A stretch of 64,000 nucleotides of DNA from contig JAIQGE010000018.1 of NCBI GenBank assembly GCA_020072815.1, forward strand, positions 1-64,000, written 5' to 3'. Below, in pieces: positions 13,297-51,281 of this stretch. The stretch comes from Terriglobia bacterium (GTDB taxonomy: Bacteria; Acidobacteriota; Terriglobia; Terriglobales; Acidobacteriaceae). Both the position numbers and the translations under genes were made by a program. The notes below the pieces were generated by a model, which worked only from the letters and a program-made list of their open reading frames with translations, was not told the DNA's origin and searched no databases. How positions within the stretch are numbered: the first letter of the stretch is position 1; the number at the start of each line of letters is the position of its first letter.

Positions 13297-13894
13297 ATGA
13301 ACGGATGATAACCCCGGATTTGCGTGACGCAAGAATTTTTGTTGTTCGCGCGCGGGTACCTCCGTAATGTTTGGGCGACCGCGCTCTTCCCCGCAACTCT
13401 GACACCGGGTTTGGATCACGCCTGGCTTCGCGAAAATACGCTTCATAAATTTGTATTTATTTCGCAGCTTACTTGCACCATTTGGAAGGGGCTGGGCAGA
13501 TGGAACTAAGGCTGATGGACCGTAGGGCCATCTTCCACGTGACGTCAGTACATGTCACGACGAATATTAGAACAGGGCCGGTTAGTGCCAAAATGGCCCA
13601 TTTTTGGCCCGTCTGGCGGTTCGCTTGCGAGCCGTCTACTAGACCGCATCGTTAGCGCAACCATCTTATTATTAATAAGTTACAGAGATAGTAGCTTCCC
13701 GCATTAGTTCATTAAAAGTTTTAACGCACACCTAATCAGCTTCTAATTGCCTAAGCACACAATCTTTCTCGCGGTGGCCCCTCGGTCCACTGCTGTCGAG
13801 CACACGCGATCAAGTTCGCTGCTGTCGAGTACCGCGAAAAAAGTGACGACGTTTGTGACGACTGCTTAGGGCAAAACTTTTAGGAGAAATCACC
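13297..13894. other. Long non-coding region before the peroxidase operon
   Basis: About 600 bp without a gene. It contains a phased TTAATC-type array (13710-13748), an A/T-rich stretch near 13670 and, downstream of the array, a potential leader with GTGG/CCAC pairing (13773-13790) and two copies of CTGCTGTCGAG (13780-13830). The array and leader are oriented toward the peroxidase gene. Confidence 0.6.
13710..13748 (+). promoter_or_regulatory. 11-bp phased TTAATC-type array 1
   Basis: Hexamers CATTAA (13710), TTAACG (13721), CTAATC (13732) and CTAATT (13743) recur at exactly 11-bp intervals. A CACAAT hexamer at 13758-13763 could be a -10 element. 11-bp direct repeats are the usual target layout of OmpR/PhoB-family response regulators (family knowledge); the regulator is not identified here. 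Drives, by position, the peroxidase operon starting at 13895. Confidence 0.6.
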
Positions 13895-16549
13895 ATGAAA
13901 CCGTCTTCCGGTACTCTGGCCTTTGTGCGCATCTTCACGTGGGTGGTGGCAATCGTTGCAGCATTGGGTTACTACGGCCATGTGCGCGCCCAGAGCAGCG
14001 GATTGCCCGAGCAGGGGATGGTCATTCCCTTGCGTCCTCTTGCGCCACTGTCCAGTGTTCCAATCCCTCCGGTGTTCGGCATGGAGGGAATTCTTGCCGA
14101 TAAGACCGCAGCCATCCAGCTTGGGAAGGCGTTGTTCTGGGAGATGCAGGCAGGCAGTGATGACGTTCAGGCCTGTGCCAGTTGCCATTTCAATGCCGGT
14201 GCCGACAGCCGCTTTAACAACGACGTCAATCCAGGACAGGCCGGCGGCGACAACAGCTTTCAGTTAGGCGTTCCGCTGAACGGATCTCTGTTTCCCAACC
14301 TTCGCTACACAGCCGGGACCCCGGGAGCCGGATTTGGCGGCTACCACGACGGCGATTTTCCCTTCCGCAAGCTTGCCAACGTCAATGATCGCTTTAGCGT
14401 GATCTCTGACGTCAATGACGTTTCTGGTTCGCAAGGCGTGTTTCTCAGCAAGATGAGCCAGGTGGTCGTCAGAATAGATAACTCCAGCGGCAAGGGCCGG
14501 CCGGTACTTGATCCCAATGGCGGCGGCGACGGCAGTGGCCTCCCCGAGATTAATCCTGTACAAGATGGTGGACCGGGAATGGTTCGCGGCGGCCCGGGCG
14601 CAATCCCGCGCCAGCCAGGATCGCATCCTGGGTTCGGCGGCAATTCCATCGGTGGCGGTGGCGGCTTCTCCACCCAGAACACCATCGTTCACGTCGGCGG
14701 CGGTCGCATTGGCTTAACCCCCCAAACCACTAGCGTGGAATCTGGCACCTCGGTGCCTGATCCGGTCTTCTCTTATCCCGATCCGGACAACCCGGGCGCG
14801 CGCATCAACACCCGCAGGACCACGGGCCGCAATACTCCCAGCGCCGTGAACGCGGTCTTTAATTTCCGCAATTTCTGGGATGGACGCGCCCAGAATATTT
14901 GCAATGGCGGCAACCCCTTCGGCGCCCGCGACAATTCCGCCCACCTGCTGGCAATCGGCGGAGACGGCAAGCTTGCTCAGGCTCACGTAAGCATGGTGAA
15001 CTCGGCGCTCTGCTCCCAGTCCCTGGGCCCGATTCTTAACGGCACTGAGATGTCCGCCGATGGACGCGATTTCCACCAGGTTGGCAAGAAGCTTCTCAAC
15101 CGTACCCCGCTGGCCAAGCAGCTGGTTGATCCCTCTGACAGCGTGCTGGGCGCGATGTCCAATGCGCCCGCCGGCAACGGACTCAAAGTCCAATACTCCG
15201 ACCTTATTAAGAAGGCCTTCCTGCCGGATTGGTGGCAGTTTGCAGACGCTCTTTGCCTGAATCCCGACGGCAGCGTGGCCAACACCACCAACCCGTCTGT
15301 TCAGGCCTGCAGCAGCGGCACCCAGCAATATTCGCAGATGGAATACAACTTCTCGTTGTTCTGGGGCGTTGCCATCCAGATGTACGAGAGCACTCTGGTT
15401 GCCGACCAGACTCCCTTCGATAAGTACATGGAAGGGCAAAAGACTTACAACCTGATCGGCGACAACCATACCCAGTTCTACACCATTCAACTGGATCCTG
15501 GTATTCAGCCCTACACCCTCTCGGTCATCGGGCTCGATCCGCTGGCGGATTTTACCGACCAGGACATGGCCTACGCCTTCGATTCCGGCGATGGACGGGT
15601 GATGGGTCCCGGACTCGATATCGGCAACATTGATTACGCCACCGGCAAGCTCACTTTGTCATTCGGGATGCCGCCACTCTCCACATTCCCTGTCAAGATC
15701 AGCTACTCGGTCGGCGCCACGCCGTTGACCACCGGCCAGCTTCGCGGCCTGCTCGTGTTCCAAACCAAAGGCCGTTGCGTCAACTGCCATGGCGGCCCGG
15801 AACTCTCCAACGCCTCAGTGGGTACGGTGAGCTCTGTGGGCCCCTCAGAACGCATGATCATGGCGGACATGCAGGTTCGGGTCTATGACACCGGCTACTA
15901 TCACATCGGTGTTCGGCCCACCGCGGAAGATGGCGGACTGGCGGGATCCGATCCGGTGGCCGGTTTGCCGCTCTCGCAATCGGAGTATCTCCGCCAGCGC
16001 ATCTGCAACGGTTCCGGCGAAGTCCTCATGATCCCCGGGCGTCCGGGCGACGGCATCTCCATGTCGCCTCTGAACTGCAACGATCAGACTGCCAGGGGCG
16101 GTTTCTTCAAGGCGCCCCAGTTGCGCAACGTGGCCCTGACGGCCCCCTATTTCCACAACGGCAGCCAGTTAACTCTGGAACAAGTCGTCGAGTTCTACAA
16201 CCGCGGCGGTGATTTCAATACCTTCGGTGAAGAGCACCAGTACATGGATGCCGACATTGACGTTCTTGGCCTGACCCTGCAGGACCAGCAAGACCTGGTT
16301 GATTTCCTGCGCATCGGTCTGACCGATCCGCGTACCGTGAACCAGTCAGCTCCCTTTGATCACCCGCAACTGTTTACGAGCAATGGCCATCCGGTGGGAT
16401 CGAATGGTTATCCCGTGAAAGATCCGGCGCACCCCGGGCAGGCAGCTAACCAATTTATGGAGGTTCCTGCCACAGGACAGAACGGCGGCAAACCAATTCC
16501 CACGTTCCTTCAGAACTTACTGGGGGTGCAAAATGTCCGGCCCAACTAA
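13895..16549 (+). CDS. Oversized di-haem cytochrome c peroxidase / MauG-like protein
   Basis: An 884-residue exported protein, more than twice the usual di-haem peroxidase length. A signal anchor is at residues 10-32. The two haem sites are CASCH (about 93-97) and CVNCH (about 628-632); the C-terminal half has the family-typical GRCVNCHGGPELSN, GGFFKAPQLRNVALTAPYFHNGS and EQVVEFYNRGGDF. The extra length lies between the haems: a Gly/Pro-rich low-complexity stretch (about 200-290) and a domain around 500-620 resembling a beta-sandwich insertion (FYTIQLDPGIQPYTLSVIG). It probably reduces peroxide or oxidises a protein side chain at the cell surface; which one is unknown. ATG 13895 has TAGGAGA eight bases upstream. 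First gene of a likely three-gene operon. Confidence 0.85.
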   Translation: MKPSSGTLAFVRIFTWVVAIVAALGYYGHVRAQSSGLPEQGMVIPLRPLAPLSSVPIPPVFGMEGILADKTAAIQLGKALFWEMQAGSDDVQACASCHFNAGADSRFNNDVNPGQAGGDNSFQLGVPLNGSLFPNLRYTAGTPGAGFGGYHDGDFPFRKLANVNDRFSVISDVNDVSGSQGVFLSKMSQVVVRIDNSSGKGRPVLDPNGGGDGSGLPEINPVQDGGPGMVRGGPGAIPRQPGSHPGFGGNSIGGGGGFSTQNTIVHVGGGRIGLTPQTTSVESGTSVPDPVFSYPDPDNPGARINTRRTTGRNTPSAVNAVFNFRNFWDGRAQNICNGGNPFGARDNSAHLLAIGGDGKLAQAHVSMVNSALCSQSLGPILNGTEMSADGRDFHQVGKKLLNRTPLAKQLVDPSDSVLGAMSNAPAGNGLKVQYSDLIKKAFLPDWWQFADALCLNPDGSVANTTNPSVQACSSGTQQYSQMEYNFSLFWGVAIQMYESTLVADQTPFDKYMEGQKTYNLIGDNHTQFYTIQLDPGIQPYTLSVIGLDPLADFTDQDMAYAFDSGDGRVMGPGLDIGNIDYATGKLTLSFGMPPLSTFPVKISYSVGATPLTTGQLRGLLVFQTKGRCVNCHGGPELSNASVGTVSSVGPSERMIMADMQVRVYDTGYYHIGVRPTAEDGGLAGSDPVAGLPLSQSEYLRQRICNGSGEVLMIPGRPGDGISMSPLNCNDQTARGGFFKAPQLRNVALTAPYFHNGSQLTLEQVVEFYNRGGDFNTFGEEHQYMDADIDVLGLTLQDQQDLVDFLRIGLTDPRTVNQSAPFDHPQLFTSNGHPVGSNGYPVKDPAHPGQAANQFMEVPATGQNGGKPIPTFLQNLLGVQNVRPN

Positions 16550-16667
16550 TTTGCAAGCGTTCGCAGTTCCCGCCCACCCATTAGGTTGGCAGGGACCAGA
16601 CAACCTCCCCCTATCAGCAAGGCAGAGCACGATAACGAAATTGAAGGACGACGGAAGGAGCTTCAAA

Positions 16668-19370: not shown

Positions 19371-19380
19371 CGAAGAAACA

Positions 19381-19408
19381 GGGCTGCCGGGCTTCGGCCC
19401 GGCAGCCC
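19381..19408 (+). terminator. Intercistronic 12-bp hairpin with TTCG loop
   Basis: Perfect stem GGGCTGCCGGGC / GCCCGGCAGCCC closed by a TTCG tetraloop, eleven bases after the upstream stop. No T-run follows. It may attenuate or protect the message between the second and third genes of the operon rather than end it. Confidence 0.7.
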
Positions 19409-19472
19409 CAAACCTAGATTTCCAAAGCAAGGTAGCAAGGCACCTAGCAGCAGACGAAGAGAGGAACCAACA

Positions 19473-21929: not shown

Positions 21930-22377
21930 TGATGTATGGCAACCAACTCGAACAGGCCGGCGCAGTTTCACGCGTCGGCCTAGTTCGCTTAAACGCAGAA
22001 ACGCAAGTCCGTATCCTAAGGGCTCTCATCGGGGGATGAGGGTTCAGAAGGTACCCAAGCAGCAGAGGCAGTCACAGACATCTCACGTGGCGCCCTGACG
22101 AAAAATGTAACTTCGGGTTCAGGTCAACCCAAAAAACTGTTGCGGGCAAACTAGCTTACCGGGTATGCTAGGGCAATTCAGAAATCCTAAAATTGACCAT
22201 TCATGGCTTACCTTGCCGTTTCGCGGCGGAGTCGGGCAAAGATGTACCCCGCCGGCGAGTTCGCCAGGTTTGCTAGTGAACCGCAGCATCCCCCAAAAAA
22301 ATACGCTGCTGATCCGTGAGTGCGCACCCAAAAGTGTGCTTTCCCGGACATGTGCTTGAGATTGGAGAAACGTCGAC
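21930..22377. other. Non-coding leader region before the YVTN/Ig gene
   Basis: Contains an imperfect hairpin at 21954-21981 (AGGCCGGCGC / GCGTCGGCCT), a CTTCGGGTTC element near 22112 similar to the CTTCCGGG elements elsewhere, and a small CTAGC/GCTAG hairpin near 22150-22170. No phased TTAATC array was found here and no gene is supported. Confidence 0.5.
21954..21981 (+). terminator. Imperfect GC-rich hairpin after the operon
   Basis: AGGCCGGCGC and GCGTCGGCCT pair with few mismatches about 25 bases after the stop of the third operon gene. No T-run is present; termination here is plausible but not certain. Confidence 0.45.
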
Positions 22378-27744: not shown

Positions 27745-27823
27745 AATTGGACGGGGAAGCAAGACGGGGCGCAAAAGCTTGGCAGAGACGCGTTCTTTTG
27801 GTGGACACGAAGAAAGGACCTGA

Positions 27824-29119: not shown

Positions 29120-29158
29120 GATTAGAGAGTTTAATCGGACATTAATCTCTTGCTAATG
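29120..29158 (+). promoter_or_regulatory. 11-bp phased TTAATC-type array 2
   Basis: GATTAG (29120), TTAATC (29131), TTAATC (29142) and CTAATG (29153) are spaced by exactly 11 bp. The flank ATTAGAGAGTTTAATC is nearly shared with arrays 4 and 5. A GAGAACTC hairpin begins 42 nt after the start of the last repeat. Confidence 0.7.
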
Positions 29159-29183
29159 AGCGCAAGCGATCATCATGCTGACG

Positions 29184-29426: not shown

Positions 29427-29454
29427 TTAATGTAGCTCTAATCCATTCTTAATC
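29427..29454 (+). promoter_or_regulatory. 11-bp phased TTAATC-type array 3
   Basis: TTAATG (29427), CTAATC (29438) and TTAATC (29449), exact 11-bp phase. TATATC at 29473-29478 is a possible -10. It lies about 190 bp upstream of the 1974-residue protein gene and is probably its promoter. Confidence 0.65.
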
Positions 29455-32600: not shown

Positions 32601-35570
32601 GCCATCGTGCCAGCTTTGCTTGATCCCACGAACAAGCTTGGCAACTATGCGGTCACCCTCAACAACGGCAACCTGGTGGTCAGCCCCGCGCCCTTGACCG
32701 TGACGGCGGCCAATGCCACTCGCGCGTTCGGCACTCCCAACCCGGTCTTCACCGGCGCCATCGTAGGCATCAAGAACGCTGACAACATAACAGCGACTTA
32801 TGCCAGCCCTGCTACCGCGACCAGCGCGCCGGGAACGTATCCCATCGTCCCGACGCTGGTTGATCCCACCGCGAAGCTGGGCAATTACACCGTGACCGTA
32901 AACAATGGCACGTTGACCATCACCGCCGCGGCATTGACGGTGACTGCGGACAACGTGAGCCGCTTGTACGGCGATCCCAACCCGACTCTGACCTACACCA
33001 TCACCGGCTTCGTGAACGGCGACACCATCGCGGTGGTTAGCGGCACGGCCGCTTGCACAACTACGGCCACGCCGGCCAGCCCGGTGGGAACGTATCCCAT
33101 CACCTGCACTGCGGGCACGCTTGCCGCGTCGGGCTATGTATTCGTGTTCGCCAACGGCACGCTGACCGTGAACCCGGCGCCGCTGACGGTGGCTGCCGCG
33201 AATGCCAGCCGGCTCTATGGCGCTGCTAACCCGGCGTTCACTGGCGCCATCACCGGCATCAAGAATGGTGACAACATCACGGCAACCTACGCTAGCGTGG
33301 CCACTGCAACCAGCAACGCCGGCACTTACCCGATCGTCCCCACACTCGTGGATCCAACGGGCAAGCTCGGCAATTACACCGTGACTTCCAACAACGGCAC
33401 GCTGACCGTGACCGCGGCGCCGTTGACCGTGACCGCGGCTAACGCAACCCGCGTGTACGGCGATCCCAACCCGGCGTTCACCGGCACCATCACCGGGCTG
33501 CTCAACGGTGACAACATCACCGCAACTTATGCCAGCGCGGCCACGCCAGCCAGCTCCGTGGGGAGCTACGCAATCGTGCCCACGCTGGTGGACCCGACGG
33601 GCAAGCTCGGCAATTACACCGTGACTTCCAACAACGGCACGCTGACTGTGACTCCGGCGGCGCTGGTTGTGACTGCCGCCAATGCAACGCGCGCATTCGG
33701 CGATCCCAACCCGGCCTTCACCGGTACTATCGTCGGCTTGAAAAACGGCGACAACATCACTGCCACGTTCTCCAGCCCGGCTACTGCAACCAGTCCGGCG
33801 GGAACGTATCCCATTATCCCGGCGTTGGTTGATCCTACCGGCAAGCTCGGCAACTATACGGTCACCGCGAACAACGGAACGCTGACTGTGACCTCCGCGG
33901 CGCTGGTTGTAACCGCGGCCAACGCCAGCCGGTTCTATGGCGATCCGAACCCGGTCTTCACCGGGACGATCACCGGCGTCAAGAACGGTGACACCATCAC
34001 GGCCACGTACAGCAGCACGGCCACCGCGACCAGCGCACCCGGGACGTTTGCAATCGTACCCACGCTGTCAGACGGCGGCACGGGCGCGCTGGCGAACTAC
34101 ACCATCGTGATCAACAACGGTATTCTCACGGTGAATGCCGCTCCGTTGAGCGTGGCTGCGGCCAATGCCACCCGCCTTTACGGCGCTGCCAACCCGGTCT
34201 TTACCGGTACCATTACCGGCCTGAAGAACGGTGACAACATCACTGCCACCTACACCAGCGTCGCTGATCCCACAAGCAATGTGGGGACCTATCCCATCGC
34301 GCCGGTGTTGAGTGATCCAACCAACAAGCTCAGCAACTACGCGGTCACTCTGACCAATGGCACGCTCACCATCACTCCGGCTCCGCTATCGGTCACGGCA
34401 GCGAATGCCAGCCGCCTGTACGGTGATCCCAACCCGGCCTTCACCGGGACGATCACCGGGCTGCTGAACGGTGACAACATCACGGCGACGTACTCCAGCG
34501 TCGATGCGACGGCCGCCGTGGGAACCTACCCGATCGTGCCTGCCCTGGTTGATCCCACCGGCAAACTCGGCAACTACACGGTCACTTCCAACAACGGAAC
34601 GCTGACGATTACGCCGGCGCCGTTGAGTGTGACTGCGGCCAATGCGGCGCGCGCATTCGGCGATCCCAACCCGGTCTTCACCGGCGCCATCGCCGGAATC
34701 AAGAACGGTGACAACATCACCGCAACATATAGCACCACGGCCACCGCCACCAGCCCGATTGGAACTTATCCAATCGTGCCTGCGCTGCTTGACCCGACCG
34801 GCAAGCTCAGCAACTATACGGTCACCATCAACAACGGAACGCTGACGATCTCGCAAGCTGTGCTGACGGTTACCGCCGCCAATGCCGGCATGCTATACGG
34901 CGATCCTGTTCCTCTCTTGACCGGCGTCATTACCGGTTTGAAGAACGGTGACACCATCAGCGCGGTCTACGGCACCACGGCAACCCCGGCCAGTCCGGTG
35001 GGGATCTACCCGATCATCCCCACGCTGGTTGATCCCAATAACCAGGCTGTCAACTACACGGTCGTGATCAACAACGGATCGCTCGTCGTTAGCCCGGCTC
35101 CGCTGCTCGTGACTGCGGCCGATGCCAGCCGCTTGTACGGCGACCCCAACCCGGTCTTCACCGGCACGATCATCGGCATCAAGAACGCTGACAACATCAC
35201 CGCCACGTTCTCCAGCGCCACCGATCCAACCACAACCGTGGGAACGTATCCAATCGTGCCCACTCTGGTTGACCCGGCCGGCAGGCTGGCCAATTACGTG
35301 GTCACTTCAACCAATGGCACGCTCACGATAACCCCGGCCCCGCTGACCATTCAGGCGGCGGATGCCACTGCACCGGTGGGCTCAATCCCGGCCTTCACCG
35401 GAACGATTACCGGAGTGAAGAATGCGGACGTGATTACGGCCACCTACTCCACCACCGCAGACGCCACCAGCCCGGCTGGAACGTACCCGATTGTCCCGGC
35501 CGCTGATCCCAACCCGGTGCTGGTCAACTACTCGATTACATTGCTCAATGGAACTCTGACTCTGCAGTAG
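29646..35570 (+). CDS. Giant exported lactonase-like propeller / DUF11 / MBG-repeat protein
   Basis: A 1974-residue exported protein. After the signal peptide (ends AAAQA) comes a lactonase-like seven-bladed propeller (about residues 37-385: NYVYVNNQTVANSVNAYSV, LLFVANTGNQTISVFQI). A DUF11 domain (about 387-672) is interrupted by two copies of a 65-70-residue module (RASGVVTI.TTAPH...SFNG.F..ASVP..FTY.QAG). An Ig-like domain follows, then 15 MBG repeats of about 78 residues (SRLYGDPNPAFTGTITGLKNGDNITATY) from residue 771 to the end. It has no sorting signal that I recognise. It is paralogous to the gene at 36133, which has a plain DUF11 domain and eight MBG units. TAGGAGGAAA supports ATG 29646. 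Probably an extracellular matrix or adhesion protein; this is inference. Confidence 0.9.
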   Translation: MISPRRITRAFCLVLTSLALCAFAALAFVLPAAAQAPGNYVYVNNQTVANSVNAYSVSSTGALSPLPGSPYATGGVGANVLCYGLNRITISGANNLLFVANTGNQTISVFQINPATGALTPAAGSPFASGLTLDSCQGLSLAVTPDGAFLMASSNGLINTFSVAANGSLAPFASTANCCSPMAGMVISGNGKFLAASNENSVSVYTIAAGVLTPVLGSPFPKTGTGLISGLDFSCAADRLYGGEATSINTITDAWTVDANGVLTPVPGSPFHTTGTNSNVVHLSPDNALLLESNQASNSVNSSNILSDGRLSNVGKFGGTAAVHVPAGMATDAGGRFLYVADANFGVAVFKISAGGLLTSLSDNAINRPGQIQDLAAYPPRSCASADLSITKSASATVVAGSPIVYTITITNNGPSAASAVVSDTVPAGTTPGGNLKIVAATGAQRASGVVTIHTTAPHSIFAGEAVSITGVGDASFNGAFTVASVPDASSFTYNQAGTDLISGGGNATTPNCQVPAGGTGVCGAVTAARAIPIVASTGAKRASGVVTITTTAPHVLLAGQTISIAAVSNTSFNGTFPIASVPTPTTFTYSQAGADATSGGGNAVTGQTLTVAFDSLANGETQTALLTTTTATTAANGAVISNTATISNKSAVDPTPANNTATAAVTVGTPVATTLTVPNGTGPYGGLATLSAVLKNSVTNAPIAGKLLTFQLNGSTLASALTDATGTATVTTLPIGTISVGTHVSAFTVSFAGDSSFLASSSVGTLVVTTAQLTVTADNQSRLYGDPNPPLTYTITGFVNGDTIAVVSGAASCSTTATPASPAGTYPITCTLGTLAATNYVFVFVDGTLTVNPAPLTVTVANASRAYGAANPAFTGTITGLKNGDVITATYSTTATAASPVGTYPITATLVDPGNVLGSYVVTNTPGTLTVTAASLVVTANNAARLYGDPNPAFTGTIAGLVNGDNITATFTSAATPASPIGNYAIVPALLDPTNKLGNYAVTLNNGNLVVSPAPLTVTAANATRAFGTPNPVFTGAIVGIKNADNITATYASPATATSAPGTYPIVPTLVDPTAKLGNYTVTVNNGTLTITAAALTVTADNVSRLYGDPNPTLTYTITGFVNGDTIAVVSGTAACTTTATPASPVGTYPITCTAGTLAASGYVFVFANGTLTVNPAPLTVAAANASRLYGAANPAFTGAITGIKNGDNITATYASVATATSNAGTYPIVPTLVDPTGKLGNYTVTSNNGTLTVTAAPLTVTAANATRVYGDPNPAFTGTITGLLNGDNITATYASAATPASSVGSYAIVPTLVDPTGKLGNYTVTSNNGTLTVTPAALVVTAANATRAFGDPNPAFTGTIVGLKNGDNITATFSSPATATSPAGTYPIIPALVDPTGKLGNYTVTANNGTLTVTSAALVVTAANASRFYGDPNPVFTGTITGVKNGDTITATYSSTATATSAPGTFAIVPTLSDGGTGALANYTIVINNGILTVNAAPLSVAAANATRLYGAANPVFTGTITGLKNGDNITATYTSVADPTSNVGTYPIAPVLSDPTNKLSNYAVTLTNGTLTITPAPLSVTAANASRLYGDPNPAFTGTITGLLNGDNITATYSSVDATAAVGTYPIVPALVDPTGKLGNYTVTSNNGTLTITPAPLSVTAANAARAFGDPNPVFTGAIAGIKNGDNITATYSTTATATSPIGTYPIVPALLDPTGKLSNYTVTINNGTLTISQAVLTVTAANAGMLYGDPVPLLTGVITGLKNGDTISAVYGTTATPASPVGIYPIIPTLVDPNNQAVNYTVVINNGSLVVSPAPLLVTAADASRLYGDPNPVFTGTIIGIKNADNITATFSSATDPTTTVGTYPIVPTLVDPAGRLANYVVTSTNGTLTITPAPLTIQAADATAPVGSIPAFTGTITGVKNADVITATYSTTADATSPAGTYPIVPAADPNPVLVNYSITLLNGTLTLQ
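31960..35560 (+). repeat. 15 MBG tandem repeats (about 235 bp each)
   Basis: Each unit encodes a YG(D/A)PNP.(F/L)TG or TY motif, an NGD.I.A motif and GTYPI.P.LVDP..KL.NY. Fourteen have recognisable YGDPNP-type starts and the last is degenerate (APVGSIPAFTG). Several neighbours share long identical DNA stretches, a substrate for copy-number change. Confidence 0.85.
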
Positions 35571-35682: not shown

Positions 35683-35721
35683 AATTAGGAACTTTAATCG
35701 GTGTCTCTTTAGTTCTTAATC
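35683..35721 (+). promoter_or_regulatory. 11-bp phased TTAATC-type array 4
   Basis: AATTAG (35683), TTAATC (35694), a degenerate unit (35705) and TTAATC (35716) keep the 11-bp phase. A GAGAA stem begins 42 nt after the start of the last repeat, as at arrays 2 and 6. TATCTT at 35731 is a possible -10. Confidence 0.6.
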
Positions 35722-36132
35722 CACAGCTTCTATCTTTGATCCATAAGCTCAGGGTTAGAGAAGCAATCGTACTTCCGGGTTCTCTATGGCTCGAAACTAG
35801 CGAGATCCCGCCTTCATGAGTTTGGTGATAGTTTTGCCAACTCCTCTACCCAACTAGAAGTAATCAACTTGATCGTTGCGTCTGCCGTTCTTCCGGGTGG
35901 CGGCGAAACCACGGGGCGGTTTGTCTCCCAGCGAGGCAAGCGGAAACGTCCATGATGGTGTGCGCTCTCACTGCCCGGACACGTTGTTGGTCCCTGCAAT
36001 TGCGTCTGCTTCCGTCATCGTCCCACAAAAAGTTCATGTGTCCTGGCCAAGGTAGCCGGCAAGGTATGAGCATCAACCTGCCAGGGCGCAGTTGGGAACG
36101 TTGTGAAGGCTTTAAATTCGAAGGAGACTAAC

Positions 36133-39100
36133 GTGACCTCCCCTTACGCCAACCGCTTTTTCGTCCGCGCCGCCAGTGTGGCAACCCAAGTTCCTGCTGT
36201 CAGACAAATATTTACTGCCGTGTTGCTTCTGGCCGTTGTTCTTTTAGCGTTGCCCGCGATGGTCCAGGCCCAGAGCTACGTCTATGTGAATAACCAGGAC
36301 GTGGCCAACTCCATCTCCGGCTTTGCTGTCTCTCCCGCCGGCGCGCTGTCTGAAGTTCCCGGATCACCGTTCTTGACCGGCGGCGTCGGGTTTACCGGCA
36401 CCTGCTACGGACTTGACCGGATTGCCATCAGCGCGCCGAACAAGCTGTTGTTCGTTTCCAACAGTGGAGACCAGACGATCAGCGTGTTTCAGATCGATCC
36501 CGCGTCGGGGTCTCTGACGGCGGCGCCCGGCTCGCCTTTCGCCAGCGGGCTTACGCTGGATGCATGCAGCGGCATCTCGCTTGCCGCCACGCCGGACGGC
36601 AATTTCCTGATGGCTTCCAGCAATGGCCAGATTCAGACGTTTAATGTTGCGGCAAACGGAATCCTTACCCCTGCGGCCACCACGGCAAACTGCTGCTCAC
36701 CCACGGTGGGAATGAAGATTGCCGCCAACGGAAACCTTCTGGCGGTCTCCAACGAGACCAGCGTTTCCGTCTACGCCATCAATGCCGACGGGTCCTTGAC
36801 TGCCGTCACTCCCGGCTCGCCGTTTGCGCAGACCGGAACCGGCCTCATTTCCAGCATGGACTTCAGTTGTGCTGCTGACCGGCTTTACGCCAGCGAAGCT
36901 TCCTTCGGCTCATCTAGCATTACCGATGCGTGGTCCGTGGACGCAACTGGCGTCCTCTCACCCGTGGCCGGTAGCCCGTTCCTGGCTCCCGGGAGCGATT
37001 CCAACGCAGTTGTCCTCAGCCCGGACAACTCGCTGCTCTTCGTCAGTGACCAGTTCAGCAACAAGATCAACTCTTTTTCCGTGCATGCAGACGGCACTCT
37101 CGCCAGCCTCGGCAGCTTTGGCGGCGTAACCTCCGTCCATGTGCCGGCAGGACTGGCCACTGACGCATCCGGCAGCTTTGTCTTTGCCGCGGATGACACC
37201 TTCGGCGTCGCGGTATTCAAGATCAATGGCACCGGCAGCCTGACCGGTGTGGCTGACGTTGCAATCAACCGGGCCGGATCCATCCAGGGCCTGGCTGCTT
37301 ATCCTCCGCGGAGCTGCGCCAGCGCCGACCTCGCTCTGACAGAAACCGCTTCGCCCTTAAGCGTCGAAGCAGGATCCAACGTTACCTACACGGTGACCAT
37401 TACCAATAACGGACCGGCCGCGGCTTCGGCCACAATTGTGGACAATCTGCCCGCAGGGACGTCCATTGTTTCCTGCACCGCAACCGGCGGCGGGGTTTGC
37501 AGCTCCTCTTTCGCCAACCCCCACACCATCACGTTCGCTTCTCTGGCCAGCGGTGATGTACAGACCGTCACCATCGTCGCGCAGACCAGCACCGCGCTGC
37601 TCAATGGCGCTTCGGTCACCAACACGGTAAGCATTGGCAACAAGTCGGTCATTGATCCCGATCTAACCAACAACTCCGTCAGCGCCACCATCAGTATCAC
37701 GGCGCAGCCCGGGCCGACGACTCTCACGGTTTCTCCGGCCACAGGCTCGTATGGCGGATTGGCAATTCTTACCGCAACATTGCGGAAGAGCTCCAACGGG
37801 GCAGGCGTGAGTGGCAAGTCGGTTGCGTTCACCCTGAATGGCGTTCCCGTCGGCACCGTGCTGACCAACGGCATCGGCGAAGCGATCCTTACCACCAGCG
37901 TTGCTGGCTTACCCTTGGGCGCCTACCCGGGAGCCGTCAGCGCCAGCTTTGCCGGCGACCCGCTCTTCAACCCCAGCAGCGGCTCGGCATCGCTGACCAT
38001 CAACAAAGCGGTCCTGACCGTGATTGCCACCAGTTCCACCAAGGTCTATGGCGACCCCAATCCGGCCTTCACCTATGCCATCTCCGGTTTCATGAACGGG
38101 GACACTGCTTCCGTAGTCAGCGGGACAACCACCTGCAACGCCTCCACGGACGCAACCACTCCGGTAGGACGCTATCCGGTTACGTGCGACCTGGGCAGCT
38201 TGTCCGCCGCAAATTACACATTCACGGTCTTGCCCGGCACGCTGATCATCACTCCGGCGCCGTTGACGGTGGCCGCGGACAACGCCACCCGTATCTATGG
38301 CGATCCCAATCCTGTGTTCACCGGCACCATTACGGGTTTGCGGAACGGCGACGTTATCACAGCCAATTTCTTCAGTAACGCAACCGCATCCAGCCCGGTA
38401 GGGACGTATCCCATCCTGGCGACGTACAACGACCCGGCAGGCAAGCTCGTCAACTACACGCCCGTGGTTACTGGAACACTCACGATAACGCAGGCAACCC
38501 TGACGGTAACGCCTGACAATCAGTCGCGTCTCTATGGCGACGCGAATCCTGTGCTGACCGGCGTGATCACCGGCATCAGGAACGGAGACAAAATCACGGC
38601 AACTTATTCGACCACCGCTGTCCAGACCAGCCCAGTGGGAACGTATCCGATTACGGCTACGCTGGTTGATCCCGGGGCGCGACTGTCTAACTACAACGTG
38701 ACGGTGAACACTGGCACTCTCACCATCAATCCGGCCCCGCTGACTGTCACTGCGGACAACGCAAGCCGGCTGTATGGCGATCCCAACCCGGTCTTCACCG
38801 GTACCATCGTTGGCATCAAGAACGGCGATGCGATCACGGCCACCTATTCCAGCCCTGCCACTCCCGCCAGCAGCGTGGGAACGTATCCCATCATTCCCGC
38901 TCTGGTGGACCCGACCGGCAAGCTGGGGAACTACACGGTGACCTCAATCAACGGCGTGCTCACCATTAGTCCGGCGCCCTTGAGCGTCGCCGCCAACAAC
39001 GCCAGCCGTGTCTACGGCAATGCGAACCCGGCTTTCACGGGGACGATTACCGGCTTGAAGAATGCTGATCCCATCACGGCAAACTTCACCACCACGGGCA

Positions 39101-40335
39101 CTCCGGCGAGCCCGGTGGGAACCTATCCCATCACGTTCGCATCGTTCAACGATCCAGCAGGGAAGCTGGGCAACTACACGGTGACGTCGATCAAGGATGG
39201 CACGCTCACCATCACCCCGGCGCCGCTTACAGTCACCGGATTCAACGGAACACGTCTCTATGGCGATCCTAACCCGGCCCCCACGATCACCGGCATCAAG
39301 AACGGCGACGCGATCACCGCCGGCTACGATGCCACTGCGCCTGGCCCAGCTACGCCTGCGGGAGGGACCTTCACGCTGGTTCCTGTTGTCAATCCATCCC
39401 CGGCGTTGAGCAACTACACCGTGACCATTCAGAACGGCCGGATTACCATCAACAAGGCGCCGCTCTCGGTGGTGGCCAATAGCTTCTCACGGCCCTTCGG
39501 TTCGCCCAACCCGACGCTGACTGGGACCATTACCGGGGTGAAGAACGGTGAGAACATCACCGCCAGCTTTACCACCACGGCGACGCAAACCAGCAACGCA
39601 GGAACCTTCACGATTACCGCGACGACGACGTTCAATCCCACGACTCTAAGCGCGAACTACACGCTGACCTCGAGCAACGGAACGCTGACCATTACCGCGG
39701 TCCCGTTGACCATCACGGCCAACAACCAGACCATTATTCTGGGTGGAGCGGTGGCAAACTCAGCCACCTATAGCGGCTTTGTGCTGGGCCAGACGCCTGC
39801 GAACCTCTCCGGCAATCTGAGCTGCAGCGCCGCCAAAGGCACGGGGAACGTGGGAACGTTCGCTCCTCCGAACGGCATCTCCTGCTCCGGACAGAGCTCG
39901 ACCAACTACACGATCACATTTGTTCAGGGTACCGCGACCGTGCAGTACGAGCCTGCTGGGGTGAATTGCTCCAACGGCCCCGGACATGTGATCCTGGCGC
40001 CGATCAGCGCAGCTGGCACCACGACGTTCACCAAGGCCTCCACGCCTACCATTCCGGTACAGTTCCGGGTGTGCGGTGTGAGTCTGGCATCGGTGTCGTC
40101 ATCCGGAGTGGTTTCCAGCTTCGTGCTCACCTCGGTCAACGGTACGCCGGCCAGCACTCCTGCTCCGCAAGGCGGTCCATTCGCCTTCGTGGGCGGCGCG
40201 CTTGCCAACGGCGCGGGTAACGCAGGCTGGCAGTTCAACCTCTCTACCAGCAACCTGACTGTGGGTAACACCTACGGGTATCAAATCAACCTGAACGACG
40301 GAACGTCGATCAGCTTCCAGTTCAAATTGCAGTAA
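36133..40335 (+). CDS. Giant exported propeller / DUF11 / MBG protein with PxKF end domain
   Basis: About 1400 residues, paralogous to the upstream 1974-residue protein. It has a signal anchor, a lactonase-like propeller (about residues 43-393, SYVYVNNQDVANSISGFAV), an uninterrupted DUF11 domain (NVTYTVTITNNGPAAASA, about 398-526), an Ig-like domain, eight MBG repeats (about 626-1266), and a C-terminal PxKF-type domain (TIPVQFRVCGVSLAS ... NLTVGNTYGYQINLNDG). PxKF domains are typically C-terminal in large exported proteins. The start is assigned to GTG 36133 because AAGGAGA ends five bases upstream, and the paralogue begins at the same place (MISPRR vs VTSPYA); ATG 36103 is an alternative. 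Likely envelope or extracellular; role inferred from domain types only. Confidence 0.87.
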   Translation: MTSPYANRFFVRAASVATQVPAVRQIFTAVLLLAVVLLALPAMVQAQSYVYVNNQDVANSISGFAVSPAGALSEVPGSPFLTGGVGFTGTCYGLDRIAISAPNKLLFVSNSGDQTISVFQIDPASGSLTAAPGSPFASGLTLDACSGISLAATPDGNFLMASSNGQIQTFNVAANGILTPAATTANCCSPTVGMKIAANGNLLAVSNETSVSVYAINADGSLTAVTPGSPFAQTGTGLISSMDFSCAADRLYASEASFGSSSITDAWSVDATGVLSPVAGSPFLAPGSDSNAVVLSPDNSLLFVSDQFSNKINSFSVHADGTLASLGSFGGVTSVHVPAGLATDASGSFVFAADDTFGVAVFKINGTGSLTGVADVAINRAGSIQGLAAYPPRSCASADLALTETASPLSVEAGSNVTYTVTITNNGPAAASATIVDNLPAGTSIVSCTATGGGVCSSSFANPHTITFASLASGDVQTVTIVAQTSTALLNGASVTNTVSIGNKSVIDPDLTNNSVSATISITAQPGPTTLTVSPATGSYGGLAILTATLRKSSNGAGVSGKSVAFTLNGVPVGTVLTNGIGEAILTTSVAGLPLGAYPGAVSASFAGDPLFNPSSGSASLTINKAVLTVIATSSTKVYGDPNPAFTYAISGFMNGDTASVVSGTTTCNASTDATTPVGRYPVTCDLGSLSAANYTFTVLPGTLIITPAPLTVAADNATRIYGDPNPVFTGTITGLRNGDVITANFFSNATASSPVGTYPILATYNDPAGKLVNYTPVVTGTLTITQATLTVTPDNQSRLYGDANPVLTGVITGIRNGDKITATYSTTAVQTSPVGTYPITATLVDPGARLSNYNVTVNTGTLTINPAPLTVTADNASRLYGDPNPVFTGTIVGIKNGDAITATYSSPATPASSVGTYPIIPALVDPTGKLGNYTVTSINGVLTISPAPLSVAANNASRVYGNANPAFTGTITGLKNADPITANFTTTGTPASPVGTYPITFASFNDPAGKLGNYTVTSIKDGTLTITPAPLTVTGFNGTRLYGDPNPAPTITGIKNGDAITAGYDATAPGPATPAGGTFTLVPVVNPSPALSNYTVTIQNGRITINKAPLSVVANSFSRPFGSPNPTLTGTITGVKNGENITASFTTTATQTSNAGTFTITATTTFNPTTLSANYTLTSSNGTLTITAVPLTITANNQTIILGGAVANSATYSGFVLGQTPANLSGNLSCSAAKGTGNVGTFAPPNGISCSGQSSTNYTITFVQGTATVQYEPAGVNCSNGPGHVILAPISAAGTTTFTKASTPTIPVQFRVCGVSLASVSSSGVVSSFVLTSVNGTPASTPAPQGGPFAFVGGALANGAGNAGWQFNLSTSNLTVGNTYGYQINLNDGTSISFQFKLQ

Positions 40336-42878: not shown

Positions 42879-43130
42879 CTAATCGTAGTAAGCCGGCATC
42901 GAATCACTCCCGTGGCCGGCAAACCTCTCAGCGATGGCTCGATTCCGGGGTTTGTTCCTCATCGATCCTGAAGCCCAGGCAACACACTCGAAATGACACG
43001 TAAGAGTTGTTAAGCGGCCACGTCGCCTTTTTTCTTCGAGCGCGAGTTCGAGATTGTCATGCGTCTCGTCATCATTGGGATTGATGGGCAGCGCCGCCCG
43101 GAACTCAGCGATTGCGCCCCTACAAATCAC
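42879..43130 (-). pseudogene. Frame-shifted remnant of the TPR array
   Basis: Reads GAIAEFRAALPINPND and then DNLELALEEKRRRG in a frame shifted from the large TPR gene, directly after that gene's stop. Compared with the normal repeat DNA, the junction (around 43115-43135) has lost bases in the AAAAGGG run and gained one in TAGGGG. It looks like one further TPR unit plus the original C-terminal tail, now out of frame. Confidence 0.6.
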
Positions 43131-45844: not shown

Positions 45845-46023
45845 CTCGGGCAAAACTCTCCTTCCTTGACTGTTGCTACTGTGCCATGCGGGGGTAATGG
45901 CGGCGCGGCCTAGGCTATCACAGGTCTGGCGATATCGGTATGGGAATGGCCCACAGGTCTGAGTTCCATCAACCTGCAAGTCAAAAACGCTTCGCCTCGT
46001 CTCTTTCTATTGACAGGTGTGAA

Positions 46024-46221: not shown

Positions 46222-46350
46222 CCTGACCTGTGGCTACCTGCATTCCCGGTGCGCGAATATACGGCTTTCCGGCCCATTCAAGCACACAGTCATCTTAGGG
46301 CAGGCAGGGCTATTACGAATCGTAGCGCCATATCTTCCATCCACAATCGC

Positions 46351-46382: not shown

Positions 46383-46452
46383 GTTCAATTGAAGGTTTAG
46401 AGTTTTTCCGGGTTGCCGAGATGCGGTTGCACCCCGGCAGTCCAGAAGCCTG

Positions 46453-49359
46453 TTATCTCGGTCTGATGGTCAAAGTAACGGAGTTAGGCAGAGTATCGGT
46501 GCCACCAGGGCCAAACGATACTGTACCGGTAGTTAACAACGTTTGTCCTGACGTGCCGGCCGCCGCCGTCACATTGACGGTGACGATCATGGTTTGTGGC
46601 GGTTTCGCGCCGTTTTTGGTTGAGCCACCCAGACTGGCGGTGGTGCAGGTGACAGTGCCGCCGTTGGCGGGAAGAGCCGGTCCGCCGCAGACTGCCACGC
46701 CGCCATTGTTCACGGTAGCGGTGACGCTGTTAATGATCAGGCCAACTGGCACCACATTGGAGAACGCGACGTTCTGCGCGGTTGTGGTGGTTGTGTTGCT
46801 GATGGTCCAGGTGAGGTTTCCAGCCTGCCCAATGTTGGGCCGGGGATTCTGGGCGACGCCAGCGACGGAGATCGCGGCACTAGCACCTCCGCCGGTTGCT
46901 GCGGTTGTTGTCGTCTTGCTGGCGGTGGTGGGAACCAGGGCAGTACCAGCAGCGTCTGTTCCGGTGACCGTCGCCGAGTTGGTGATGGTCTGGCCTTGCA
47001 TCTGCACGATGACGTTGACTCTGGCTACGGCGCCTGGAGCCAAATCACCCACAGTGCAGTTCGCAGTAACCACGCCCGCGCCTCCGCTCGTGCACACTCC
47101 CGGTCCGGTTGCGGACAGGATGTTCGCTATCGGCAGGAGAGTTACACCACCTGAGCCGCTGACGGCATTAATGCCGGCTTGCGAGTAGGTAAAGGTTGTG
47201 GCCGTAAGGCCGCTCGTAACCGCGAATGTGCCGTTGAAGGAAGGATCGGTCACACCTGCAATGGTCACGGTTTGGCCAAAGCCGAAGAAGGTTGGATCGA
47301 CGGTGGTTACAGTCACAACGCCGTTTAACCGCGAAATCGACGAAATGCTCGCCGCCACGGTGCTCAGCGTGTCTGCCACGGAGATGTTGGACGCCGGGAA
47401 ATTCGACGTGTTGGTAATGGTGATGGTATAGGTCACTGGCGACGGCGGGGTCGTTCCAGTGGACGGGCCGCCCATGGTAACCGTTAAAGTCGGCGTGTTG
47501 GCTGCCGAAGGAATGACCGCATTGGAGGGCGCCGATTCAGCGCTGTTTCCGGCAATGTTGGTCGCGTGCACAGTGAAGGTGTAGGAATGACCGTTGATCA
47601 GACCGCCGATCAACACGCTATCAGTATTCGAGCCGAACGCGGGCGGCGGCACGCCTACTGAGACCCCGGTAGGAACACCGGCATCCAGTACGCTCACCGT
47701 GTAGCTGGTAATGGGTGAACCTCCGTTGCTGGCCGAAACCGTCCAGCTCACGAACGCCTGCGTATCGCCTGCAACGGCCGTCGCGCCGGTGGGTGCGCTG
47801 GGCACGCCGATGCCCGGGGGCGTAGCGATGTTGCTCTGGATTGAAAGCGCGCTGGTTCCCGTGGCATTGGTGGCCGAGACTTGGAAAGCGTAAGAAACGC
47901 CGTCGGTCAGGCCGGGGATCAGGAGCGAAGTGGGCGGGTAGATAGAGCCCGCCGCTGGGTTGACAACGATGTCAGCCAGAGGCGCGCCGACGGAGATAAA
48001 GCTGTTGTGTACGGTGTAGCTGGTTACCGGCTGGGCAACCTGCGCCGGACTCCAACTCAGGGTAATTTGCGATTCGCCGGCCACCGCTACAACATTCAAC
48101 GGCGTTCCCGGAGCAGCAGGTCCTGCTGAGGTCTGCGTTGTCTGCCACCAGCGGCCATTGCCAATGGCGGCTGCATTAACAGCAATGACTGGATCCTCGG
48201 CTGAGTACGCAATCAGGTTGGCGGGGTCGGTTCCGTCCACCACCATGGCGTTCATGGCCGCGAGCGGCGGATTGGGCAGCGGGTCAACCAGGTAAGTCAA
48301 ATCAAAGGTGGAGCCGGCCAGTCCCTGGGCAATGTTGCCTACCCAAGCGACTTGGCTTCCCACGCCGTAATAGAGATTGTTGCCGTTGATGGCGGGATAG
48401 AACTGATCGCCGGCCAGGCTGACTGTGGGGCCTACCTGGGGCAGTATGGGTATCACCGTGCCATTCGCCGTGCTGCATGCCGCAAACGGAGGAACCAGAC
48501 AGGTGGTATCGGCATTGGGGATCACGAACGGAGAAGTGCCGTCGCCCGAAAACAAGTTGTGGCCCAGAAAGGCCAAACCGTTGCTGGATGCGCCATCCGG
48601 ACTTGTGGCCACCAGTTGCTCGAGCTGCGCACAGGTGCCAAAGCCGAACTCGGTGGCGGTGGCTGGGCTGTTAAAGCGAAGGATGTCGCCGCTGTCCAGG
48701 AATCCTACCCAGATGTCCCCCAACGGGCTCATGGCCAATCCGTTAGGCGTTGTGCCGGTCCCCAGAAACGGGCAACCTGAACCGCCAAGAAATGCCCCTC
48801 CTCTCCTAACGCCCGAGCCGCCAGCCAGCGTAAAGGCGGAGGTGAGGTCCAGCATGCCGTGACCGCCGTCAGCCGAAGGATCGAAGCCGATGCGAATCAC
48901 GCCTTGGCTGGCGCTGTTGTTGTCAACGAAATAGAGGAAGTGTCTTGCTGCGTCATAGGCGAACTGGCCGCCGAAAGGTATTGGAGCGCCCGCCCGGTTG
49001 ATGTTATACGAACAGGTCAACATATTGATGTCCCAGGGCCCTGGGGCGTCAATTTCTGGATCCATGCGGCATGGACCGGCGAAGCTATCCCCCACCCACA
49101 AATGGCGCACGGGCCGGCCGGTGAACTGGCTGATCGCCGCACCTTGCAGGACGATGCCGCCCACTGGGCCGGTGTTTACGGTGTTCGCAGTTCCACCTGA
49201 GAACTCAATGGTATTGGTGGTTGGGGCCACAGGTGTTTGCGCGCTGGCTGTGAGTGCGGCGAACGCAAGAAGAATTGTGAGGCAGAACCAAACGCGGGCC
49301 GAAATGCGCCGCCCGCAGCATACGCCTGGCTCGGCGGCTGTCCGTGTCGAGGTATTCAT
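46453..49359 (-). CDS. Exported propeller / fibronectin III / DUF11 protein
   Basis: A 968-residue exported protein. Signal peptide (LTILLAFAALTASAQ, about residues 27-41), a propeller-like domain opening with LWVGDSFAGPCRMD (related to the GFCR module of the gene at 19473), two fibronectin type III domains (about 416-512 and 520-612: LNVVAVAGESQITLSWSPA; ATAVAGDTQAFVSWTVS), and two DUF11-like domains (about 621-815 and 826-968). The first DUF11 contains the same inserted module (RLNGVVTVTT ... DPSFNGTFAVTS ... FTYSQAG) seen twice in the 1974-residue protein. GGAAGG is five bases before the ATG. Array 5 on the same strand is its probable promoter. Likely an envelope or extracellular binding protein. 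Confidence 0.87.
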   Translation of the reverse strand: MNTSTRTAAEPGVCCGRRISARVWFCLTILLAFAALTASAQTPVAPTTNTIEFSGGTANTVNTGPVGGIVLQGAAISQFTGRPVRHLWVGDSFAGPCRMDPEIDAPGPWDINMLTCSYNINRAGAPIPFGGQFAYDAARHFLYFVDNNSASQGVIRIGFDPSADGGHGMLDLTSAFTLAGGSGVRRGGAFLGGSGCPFLGTGTTPNGLAMSPLGDIWVGFLDSGDILRFNSPATATEFGFGTCAQLEQLVATSPDGASSNGLAFLGHNLFSGDGTSPFVIPNADTTCLVPPFAACSTANGTVIPILPQVGPTVSLAGDQFYPAINGNNLYYGVGSQVAWVGNIAQGLAGSTFDLTYLVDPLPNPPLAAMNAMVVDGTDPANLIAYSAEDPVIAVNAAAIGNGRWWQTTQTSAGPAAPGTPLNVVAVAGESQITLSWSPAQVAQPVTSYTVHNSFISVGAPLADIVVNPAAGSIYPPTSLLIPGLTDGVSYAFQVSATNATGTSALSIQSNIATPPGIGVPSAPTGATAVAGDTQAFVSWTVSASNGGSPITSYTVSVLDAGVPTGVSVGVPPPAFGSNTDSVLIGGLINGHSYTFTVHATNIAGNSAESAPSNAVIPSAANTPTLTVTMGGPSTGTTPPSPVTYTITITNTSNFPASNISVADTLSTVAASISSISRLNGVVTVTTVDPTFFGFGQTVTIAGVTDPSFNGTFAVTSGLTATTFTYSQAGINAVSGSGGVTLLPIANILSATGPGVCTSGGAGVVTANCTVGDLAPGAVARVNVIVQMQGQTITNSATVTGTDAAGTALVPTTASKTTTTAATGGGASAAISVAGVAQNPRPNIGQAGNLTWTISNTTTTTAQNVAFSNVVPVGLIINSVTATVNNGGVAVCGGPALPANGGTVTCTTASLGGSTKNGAKPPQTMIVTVNVTAAAGTSGQTLLTTGTVSFGPGGTDTLPNSVTLTIRPR

Positions 49360-49797
49360 TTTTGCCTTCCCGTCCTGGGCTCATGGCCCAAGGATCGTTT
49401 CGAATTGGCAAGGCATCATCCGTTGTGTTTAAGAAAGGCTGTCTTCTTAGAGACAACCATTCACGCCGCCACACCTCAGCGCACGTAAGCTCGAGCCTTC
49501 TGCCAGCGCCGTGACCTGTGAAAGCCGGAAGGAGCAGGACAGGGCGCAAATCAGCGAAAGCTCGCTCATTAAGGTTTTAGGCCGGAAGGATTAGAGGGCG
49601 ATTGATTGTGGATTAAAATCTCTAATGTTCGGTCCTGGACATACGTATCGCCCGGCTCTGGCGCACGCAACCTTATGAATCAATGGACTGGACCGTCTTA
49701 ATCTGACGCGGAGTTGCCGGACTTCCGGGTCTTATCGGCTGAAGAGCAATGGTTTTACCGGGAATTTTCCCGTTCCACTTTTATTTTCAGGCTGTCT
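49360..49797. other. Non-coding region with array 5 and two CTTCCGGC/G types
   Basis: On the minus strand: array 5 and two CTTCCGGC octamers (49581-49588, 49524-49531), the latter inside a CCTGT/ACAGG hairpin. On the plus strand: CTTCCGGG (49722), GGCTGAAGAGC (49737) and a CGGGAA/TTCCCG hairpin with T-rich flank (49757-49785), plus an FRVLS-type frame. Elements thus point both ways. Confidence 0.55.
49567..49627 (-). promoter_or_regulatory. 11-bp phased TTAATC-type array 5 (longest)
   Basis: Read on the minus strand: CATTAG (49627), TTAATC (49616), TCAATC (49605), CTAATC (49594), a degenerate unit, and TTAATG (49572), all in one 11-bp phase. The ATTAGAGA.TTTAATC flank matches array 2. It points to the gene starting at 49359. 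Confidence 0.7.
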
Positions 49798-49800
49798 TCA
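49714..49800 (+). other. Short frame with FRVLS-type peptide
   Basis: From a TTG at 49714 the frame reads PDFRVLSAEEQWFYRE, then SRSTFIFRLSS. It resembles the frame at 29184 (PTFRVLSSADQ-FYRA, then KSTISYRVLS), with different codons for the same Leu and Ser. It runs on into the antisense of the next gene, so the natural 3' end is unclear. Confidence 0.35.
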
Positions 49801-51096: not shown

Positions 51097-51253
51097 AGAA
51101 CCACATATTCAGCTGGCGGGACGCAGAGTGTCAACCCAGTCTCACGTCAAAGTAATAATGATGCGGAATCAGTACCCATCAAGTCATTGCCGCAACCTCT
51201 CTTGCCCCACGGAGAGGTTCAATACCACCTTTGTGCGCCTGAAATGAGAATTC

Positions 51254-51281
51254 TTAATGAGCCCCTAATGCTCTCTTAAGC
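51254..51281 (+). promoter_or_regulatory. 11-bp phased TTAATC-type array 6
   Basis: TTAATG (51254), CTAATG (51265) and TTAAGC (51276), exact 11-bp phase. TAGAGT at 51296 is a possible -10. The GAGAACTC arm starts 43 nt after the last repeat start, as at arrays 2 and 4. Confidence 0.6.

Follow-up and report, generated by a model that had tools for sequence, protein, structure and literature searches.

A phased operator of mixed unit orientation marks a putative genus-wide regulon in an Acidobacteriota lineage

Phased arrays in the analyzed region

This study concerns arrays of short hexamers, repeated at a pitch of 11 bp, in a 64,000-nucleotide stretch of a Terriglobia bacterium genome (Acidobacteriota; assembly GCA_020072815.1, contig JAIQGE010000018.1, positions 1 to 64,000), which is referred to below in its entirety as the window. 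Six such arrays are listed in Table 1 together with the genes that follow them. As a preliminary description of the window had noted, arrays 1 to 5, including array 5 on the minus strand, precede either a gene run headed by a peroxidase or genes for giant exported proteins, with array 6 as the exception. The target of array 6 is doubtful. Judged from sequence, the regulon is real and extends across the genus, its operator is unusual in mixing inverted and direct units, and the identity proposed below for its regulator is a good guess.

Every array hexamer in the preliminary description was found at its given position, and the 11-bp phase is equally clear, with same-strand YTAAT pairs occurring six times at 11 bp and five times at 22 bp in the window, where no other spacing between 4 and 60 bp is represented more than once. 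The first unit, which had been described as an ATTAG/ATTAA variant, is indeed present; however, SATTAR is the reverse complement of YTAATS, and the unit is the same site inverted. A position matrix trained on 45 deduplicated arrays from genomes of the genus other than this one found arrays 1, 2, 4, 5 and 6 again (32.1 to 44.2 bits), but array 3 scored weakly; the matrix gave nothing of 10 bits or more in 20 Markov-1 simulations of the window. Array 3 is without the inverted unit, its register position for the -10 element holds TCGACT, and it is perhaps an auxiliary site. Unit 3 of array 4 is missing, with CTCTTT at 35705 in its place, and the first unit of array 6 is a degenerate inverted AATGAG at 51243. 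The TTAATG at 49572, formerly counted as a member of array 5, sits downstream of the -10-like TAAAAC and was removed from the array. Past the target of array 5, and in the same direction, lies a gene for a 950-amino acid (aa) protein made up largely of TPR repeats (43130-45979; 25 TPR_11 stretches).

Table 1. Arrays, -10-like hexamers and downstream genes in the window, with the candidate regulatory genes of the same genome (G000; positions with prefixes)
Feature	Position	Strand	Details
Array 1	13710..13748	+	CATTAA / TTAACG / CTAATC / CTAATT, 11-bp pitch; matrix 43.0 bits
-10-like CACAAT of array 1	13758-13763	+	A2 and T6 in register
Array 2	29120..29158	+	GATTAG / TTAATC / TTAATC / CTAATG, 0 mismatches; matrix 38.8 bits
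-10-like GATCAT of array 2	29168-29173	+	A2 and T6 in register
Array 3	29427..29454	+	direct units only (n = 3); matrix 21.1 bits (weak)
Array 4	35683..35721	+	AATTAG / TTAATC / (CTCTTT) / TTAATC; matrix 32.1 bits
-10-like TATCTT of array 4	35731-35736	+	A2 and T6 in register
Array 5	49589..49627	-	CATTAG / TTAATC / TCAATC / CTAATC; matrix 44.2 bits
-10-like TAAAAC of array 5	49579-49574	-	A2 present, T6 absent
Array 6	51243..51281	+	AATGAG / TTAATG / CTAATG / TTAAGC, 3 mismatches; matrix 33.5 bits
-10-like TAACGT of array 6	51291-51296	+	A2 and T6 in register
Target of array 1: di-haem CCP_MauG/RoxA-like peroxidase	13895..16549	+	heads same-strand gene run 13895-28930
Target of arrays 2/3: 1974-aa protein	29646..35570	+	signal-like N-terminus; lactonase-like propeller, DUF11, 15 MBG_2 stretches
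Target of array 4: 1410-aa lactonase/DUF11/MBG_2 protein	36103..40335	+	signal-like N-terminus
Target of array 5: 968-aa fn3/DUF11 protein	46453..49359	-	signal-like N-terminus
Doubtful target of array 6: APH-type kinase, RapZ C-terminal domain	51837..53357	+	556 bp downstream
Histidine kinase	C18:129695-131116		beside response regulator C18:131131
Kinase-linked response regulator	C18:131131-131646 (L071:7116-7682)	-	47 residues missing in frame
Orphan response regulator	C13:88562		intact, no adjacent kinase

Distribution of the operator across genomes

The main pattern, SATTAR-N5-YTAATS-N5-YTAATS-N5-YTAATS with up to three mismatches, was searched for with the reversed pattern as a control. 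The genome containing the window (5.29 Mb) holds 12 copies, compared to no control match, and eight of the 12 lie on eight further contigs, one apiece; the regulon is therefore genome-wide and extends beyond this island, which the earlier proposal had placed as a whole under one regulator. The survey covered 61 genomes, of which nine (G000, the genome of the window, to G008) make up an uncultivated soil genus, probably Candidatus Angelobacter; this genus has been described from soil metagenomes (PMC9723581), in a study that also reports soil metatranscriptomes from a vernal-pool site. The relatives include Candidatus Angelobacter sp. Gp1-AA117 (G001; QHVI01) and the metagenome-assembled genomes JAICYU01 (G003) and JAIQGL01 (G004). 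From G000 to G008, the genomes contain 12, 4, 10, 9, 10, 10, 0, 7 and 0 copies, respectively, for a total of 62 in seven of the nine. The 52 genomes outside the genus yielded four copies altogether, each with three mismatches, and the reversed pattern was absent from each of the 61 genomes. A broader survey of 399 genomes of the class, allowing up to two mismatches, returned three genomes of the genus (8, 5 and 4 copies) and one other (1 copy). Arrays are far more frequent than the control (12 versus 0 in this genome, 62 versus 0 in the genus), and the 11-bp phase is kept before homologous genes in other species of the genus, both of which the preliminary description had anticipated for a regulatory element. 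No paper naming this motif or a regulator in Angelobacter was found among the papers listed in one open-access library.

Searching for three direct units alone was tried and rejected. With up to two mismatches, this pattern gave 14 matches in the genome of the window and seven for its reversed control, and it separates signal poorly compared to the four-unit pattern (12 versus 0). Requiring no mismatches, with the S positions dropped, gave six matches and one control match.

Operator and promoter anatomy

The full operator spans 39 bp and consists of an inverted SATTAR followed by three direct YTAATS units, all at the 11-bp pitch. An exact SATTAR stands one turn upstream in eight of the 14 matches to the three-unit direct pattern in the genome of the window, although that pattern leaves the place of the first unit unspecified. 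Since column 11, which was left open in the search, is T in 59 of the 62 genus arrays, the half-site can be written as TYTAATS. Spacing and unit order were tested on 994 kb of genus DNA, comprising 112 stretches, some of them overlapping and part of them picked by the pitch-11 pattern. There were 56 distinct matches at a pitch of 11 and none at 8, 9, 10, 12, 13 or 14, and because of how the stretches were chosen, the zeros at other pitches weigh more than the 56. With up to three mismatches at pitch 11, the main order again gave 56 matches, followed by arrangements with the first two units inverted (10), alternating units (4), the last unit inverted (3), all units direct (2) and the second unit inverted (1). 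The 10 matches with two inverted units raised the prospect of a fifth, inverted unit upstream, which was rejected, as columns -25 to -3 carry at most 0.10 bits and column -2 carries 0.17. Only the A at column -1 stands out (0.46 bits), mirroring the T that follows a direct unit.

A -10-like hexamer begins 9 bp past the last unit, with A2 and T6 both present in 34 of 53 deduplicated arrays, compared to between 0 and 8 of the 53 at each of the remaining offsets between 0 and 59. This bears out the earlier expectation of a -10 element at a fixed distance. No -35 element is evident in the genus arrays, where columns 26-31, 17 bp upstream of the -10, are not TTGACA-like. The operator thus stands in for the -35, and its distance to the -10 is fixed, as in operators of the OmpR/PhoB type, but it departs from the PHO-box and ArcA-box pattern of units in the same orientation, as unit 1 is inverted. 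In a column profile of 61 rows, four of them from outside the genus, positions flanking the 39 bp and the -10 mostly hold less than 0.1 bits (maximum 0.23) except for the A beside unit 1, which argues against an origin of the arrays as copies of some longer repeat. Conservation is also slight in the second and third spacers.

One array in genome G002 (L098:3087-3125; G002:C440) lies before a multicopper oxidase gene but runs on the strand opposite to it. Both readings share the inverted pair, and toward the oxidase a further unit follows at 12 bp and another at 11 bp; this inverted pair might serve both directions.

Genes behind the arrays

Surroundings were read for 58 of the 62 genus arrays. 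None of these arrays lies mostly within a called open reading frame and 52 face the next gene, while five do not and one reaches the end of its contig without a gene. Two of the five face small uncalled genes, encoding a DDTPPVTVE protein and TatA, and a third faces a possible small membrane protein. When targets were grouped, with four arrays added (three weaker ones of G000, of which two are in the window, and a four-mismatch array of G001), the most common families were di-haem MauG-type peroxidases (nine arrays, all seven array-bearing genomes) and fn3/DUF11 exported proteins (nine arrays, six genomes), followed by multicopper oxidases with an RR-type N-terminus (eight arrays, six genomes) and lactonase/MBG giants (seven arrays, three genomes). 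The small DDTPPVTVE protein, a HisKA_3 sensor kinase and an unnamed small protein (GEPND...) each follow four arrays in four genomes, and the remaining groups account for two arrays or one each. At E ≤1e-50, the peroxidase family is present in all seven array-bearing genomes, in neither of the two array-less genomes of the genus and in none of the 52 genomes outside it.

The preliminary description had placed the arrays upstream of genes for exported proteins. Tested on the first downstream genes, this enrichment is weak, with a hydrophobic N-terminus in 26 of 49 compared to 109 of 298 other genes (p = 0.04), where start codons came from a custom script and neighboring genes are also rich in exported proteins; for these reasons, the statement rests on the list of target families. 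The export route itself may be co-regulated with the multicopper oxidases, since the oxidases of the regulon bear RR-type N-termini (SRRDLIKWG) and, in one genome, an array precedes tatA (PF02416, 59 bits; L099, G002:C42, array at 3694 on the minus strand).

Several smaller observations concern other genes near arrays. In four genomes, arrays are followed by the gene for a conserved protein, roughly 100 aa long (GEPND-VCITLMHEMQSFVRQ) (L066:6161-6499, L096, L107 and L075), and its L066 copy matched no Pfam or NCBIfam family. A second family of small proteins after arrays has one hydrophobic stretch and a DxDxDDTPPVTVEL-like motif (L062:15853-16254, L065, L072, L082 and L291); no Pfam family matched the L062 copy. 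Divergent from the array-driven peroxidase operon on contig C9 lies a gene for a 1789-aa alpha-2-macroglobulin-type protein (L062:298-5667). Arrays near the same cupin-like gene in two genomes (L060:11937, G000:C3; L087:8027, G005:C6:174226) face 500-750 bp with no clear same-strand gene and no detectable similarity between the two stretches, and these may be chance matches or RNA promoters.

A candidate response regulator and kinase

The preliminary description had proposed a regulator of the OmpR/PhoB type acting on direct repeats. The regulator type remains the best-supported reading, given the 11-bp pitch, the lack of a -35, the -10 at 9 bp and a co-occurring response regulator and kinase, but with its inverted unit 1 the operator is more than a set of direct repeats. 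Profiling across the genus covered OmpR-type domains. The genome of the window has 17 Trans_reg_C matches, which were compared with those of G003 (9 of 9), G006 (7 of 8, a fragment being omitted), G008 (12 of 12) and G007 (11 of 14). Only the response regulator at C13:88562 and its paralogue at C18:131131 have homologues of at least 70% identity in the array-bearing G003 (80% and 75%, respectively) and G007 (80% and 74%) but none above 50% in the array-less G006 and G008. Further homologues of C13:88562, at 71-78% identity, occur in G001, G002 and G005, on stretches that had been fetched for their arrays. The N-terminal 40 aa of the response regulator find a match at E ≤1e-15 in all seven array-bearing genomes, compared to only about 2e-4 in G006 and G008, and the adjoining kinase (E ≤1e-40) is present once in each of the seven and in neither of the array-less genomes.

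Arrays also occur close to the pair itself. In G001 an array starts two bases past the end of the kinase gene, an array likewise follows the kinase gene in G002, and in G004, G005 and G007 a four-mismatch array lies one gene beyond the pair. The best family for the response regulator is TIGR01387 (239.3 bits for the C13 copy of G000 and 249.1 for G003, under a curated cut-off of 279.2), and that for the kinase, which in its G003 copy has a HAMP-HisKA-HATPase architecture, is TIGR01386 (224.8 bits, cut-off 292.55). Since both scores fall below their cut-offs, the pair is named CopRS-like and not CopRS. In a FastTree tree, read without regard to support values, the CopR-like response regulators of the genus form one clade, and five of the seven genomes with arrays carry two to four paralogues each. 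The recognition helix, TNIVDVYINYLR, was considered as a genus-specific signature and rejected, as it is common to response regulators of the array-less genomes.

From these data, it is fairly probable that each array combines an activator operator with its own promoter and is bound by a CopR/CusR-like response regulator of the OmpR family with an adjacent kinase. Several observations weigh against this assignment. Effector domains of the OmpR family bind head-to-tail, as described for PhoB (PMC4415409), and the inverted unit 1 breaks this arrangement. The -10 with A2 and T6 is lacking in 19 of the 53 arrays. In G000, the kinase-linked response regulator, as assembled, is without 47 residues of the linker and the start of the DNA-binding domain that its relatives have, leaving only the orphan C13 copy intact. 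Around the response regulator-kinase pair of G000 and of G003, the stretch read yielded no array even with up to four mismatches allowed, nor does one precede the response-regulator gene in the stretches read from these two genomes. The co-occurrence hinges on two array-less genomes that are 81% and 89% complete and that may represent a sister lineage without many genes, and the peroxidase shows the same pattern of presence as the response regulator and kinase. The recognition helix, moreover, is nearly equal in array-less genomes (for example TNVVDVYVNYLR in G006, C197).

Alternative explanations

There are several potential alternatives to the CopR-like pair. One is a NarL/FixJ-family response regulator, encoded on contig C10 of G000 divergently from an array-driven HisKA_3 kinase, whose array lies between regulator and kinase in four of the five gaps read (G000, G004, G005 and, with four mismatches, G001). 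ComA is a NarL-type regulator, of a family other than that of the candidate proposed here, and NarL-type proteins bind inverted heptamers together with additional half-sites. For ComA, an inverted repeat with an extra half-site is reported (PMC3798270), resembling the present operator but with three elements compared to four. Nonetheless, the C10-type kinase (E ≤1e-30) and response regulator (E ≤1e-50) were not found in G003 or G007, which are 97% and 93% complete and carry nine and seven arrays, respectively, in searches that scored part of the first-look candidates for both proteins in G007 and for the kinase in G003. In addition, the corresponding gap in G002 (L280) holds no array up to four mismatches, and the response regulator has relatives of 61-65% identity in array-free genomes. 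The array beside the pair faces the kinase, so that the C10 system itself appears to belong to the regulon. Given the results for G003, G007 and the G002 gap, it was dropped as first-choice regulator, a role that we regard as improbable for it.

It is somewhat unlikely, but deserves consideration, that the operator is bound by some other protein, such as an AraC, LytTR, one-component winged-helix or different NarL-type regulator, or another OmpR-type protein such as C13:59351. In favor of this, the cross-genus profiling dealt with OmpR-type domains alone, each genome of the genus offers numerous NarL-type candidates (50-100 by first-look counts), and orthologues of C13:59351 occur in G003 and G007. 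The recognition helix is near-identical in the G006 orthologue, but the occurrence of that orthologue (72%) in an array-less genome counts against C13:59351, and the geometry, with its 11-bp pitch and a last site about 10 bp ahead of the -10, matches PhoB-type activators. The many similar short blocks within one genus could also suggest dispersed repeats or copies of a mobile element, akin to repetitive extragenic palindromes (REP-like), with no regulatory role. This is very hard to reconcile with an identity that is limited to the 39 bp and the -10, given the low information content of the flanks beyond the A beside unit 1, or with poorly conserved second and third spacers and arrays that avoid open reading frames and mostly face the next gene.

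Comparison with known systems

The candidate CopR-like regulator and the operator share features with three known groups of response regulators. The PHO box is placed about 10 bp upstream of the -10. Its units of 7 + 4 = 11 bp are bound in tandem over the -35 region, with a sigma contact (PMC4415409, PMC3348028). The array resembles it in having 11-bp units over the -35 region but differs in its half-site (TYTAATS versus CTGTCAT), in its extra upstream units and in its inverted first unit, and no phosphate genes were noticed among the array targets. Escherichia coli ArcA recognizes two to five half-sites, mainly 11 bp apart center to center, at many targets (PMC3798270). Multiple 11-bp half-sites, many targets and an OmpR/PhoB-family regulator, here a predicted one, are common to both systems; however, ArcA elements are direct, whereas here the first of four is inverted, their number is mostly fixed and the -10 lies at one distance.

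At the protein level, the closest family of the candidate pair is that of the heavy-metal response regulators CusR, CopR and CzcR (best matches TIGR01387 and TIGR01386), which bind the palindrome ATTCATnnATGTAAT (PMC11195947). Units 1 and 2 of the array (ATTARA N3 TYTAAT) are likewise palindromic with the same ATT...TAAT ends, and the multicopper oxidases among the targets may hint at a metal response. In contrast to this family, the scores lie under the curated cut-offs, the operator continues with two direct half-sites, and no metal pump was identified among the first genes downstream of the arrays.

Proposed mechanism and conclusions

In the model that we favor, a periplasmic signal would lead the kinase to phosphorylate the CopR-like response regulator. 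With half-sites spaced by one helical turn, the four bound subunits would then all lie on the same face of the DNA, with a first pair on the inverted units 1 and 2 and a second pair in tandem on units 3 and 4. The subunit closest to the -10 would aid RNA polymerase at a sigma-70-type promoter without a -35; because the last half-site ends 9 bp before the -10, where the -35 is missing, the bound regulator could recruit the polymerase as PhoB does. Transcripts would be expected to begin some 7 bp beyond the -10, for instance near 13770 and 29180, giving leaders of about 125-470 bp ahead of the four clear targets of the window. The missing -35 also suggests activation as opposed to repression. 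The regulator would thereby turn on redox enzymes, whether periplasmic or secreted, together with giant surface proteins. As to the signal, one can only guess at copper or some other redox cue, from the protein family and from the multicopper oxidases among the targets.

A wider proposal, which we put forward tentatively and hold to be possible but short of probable, is that a lineage-specific radiation of CopR-like regulators runs the regulon of this genus by a new operator grammar, in which a CusR-like inverted pair nucleates binding and a PhoB/ArcA-like tandem pair extends it turn by turn to the polymerase. Secreted multicopper oxidases, di-haem peroxidases, beta-rich surface giants and, in one genome, TatA would then be united in one extracellular oxidative program.

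To our knowledge, very little has been learned about how transcription is controlled in Acidobacteriota, and what is known of this genus comes from metagenomes. A single DNA signature here yields a regulon, a promoter model and a candidate regulator from sequence alone, and the mixed inverted and direct operator would offer a clear test of how OmpR-family proteins are arranged on DNA. By placing many uncharacterized exported giants alongside multicopper oxidases and di-haem peroxidases, the regulon provides a first hint that these proteins may have a joint role in soil.

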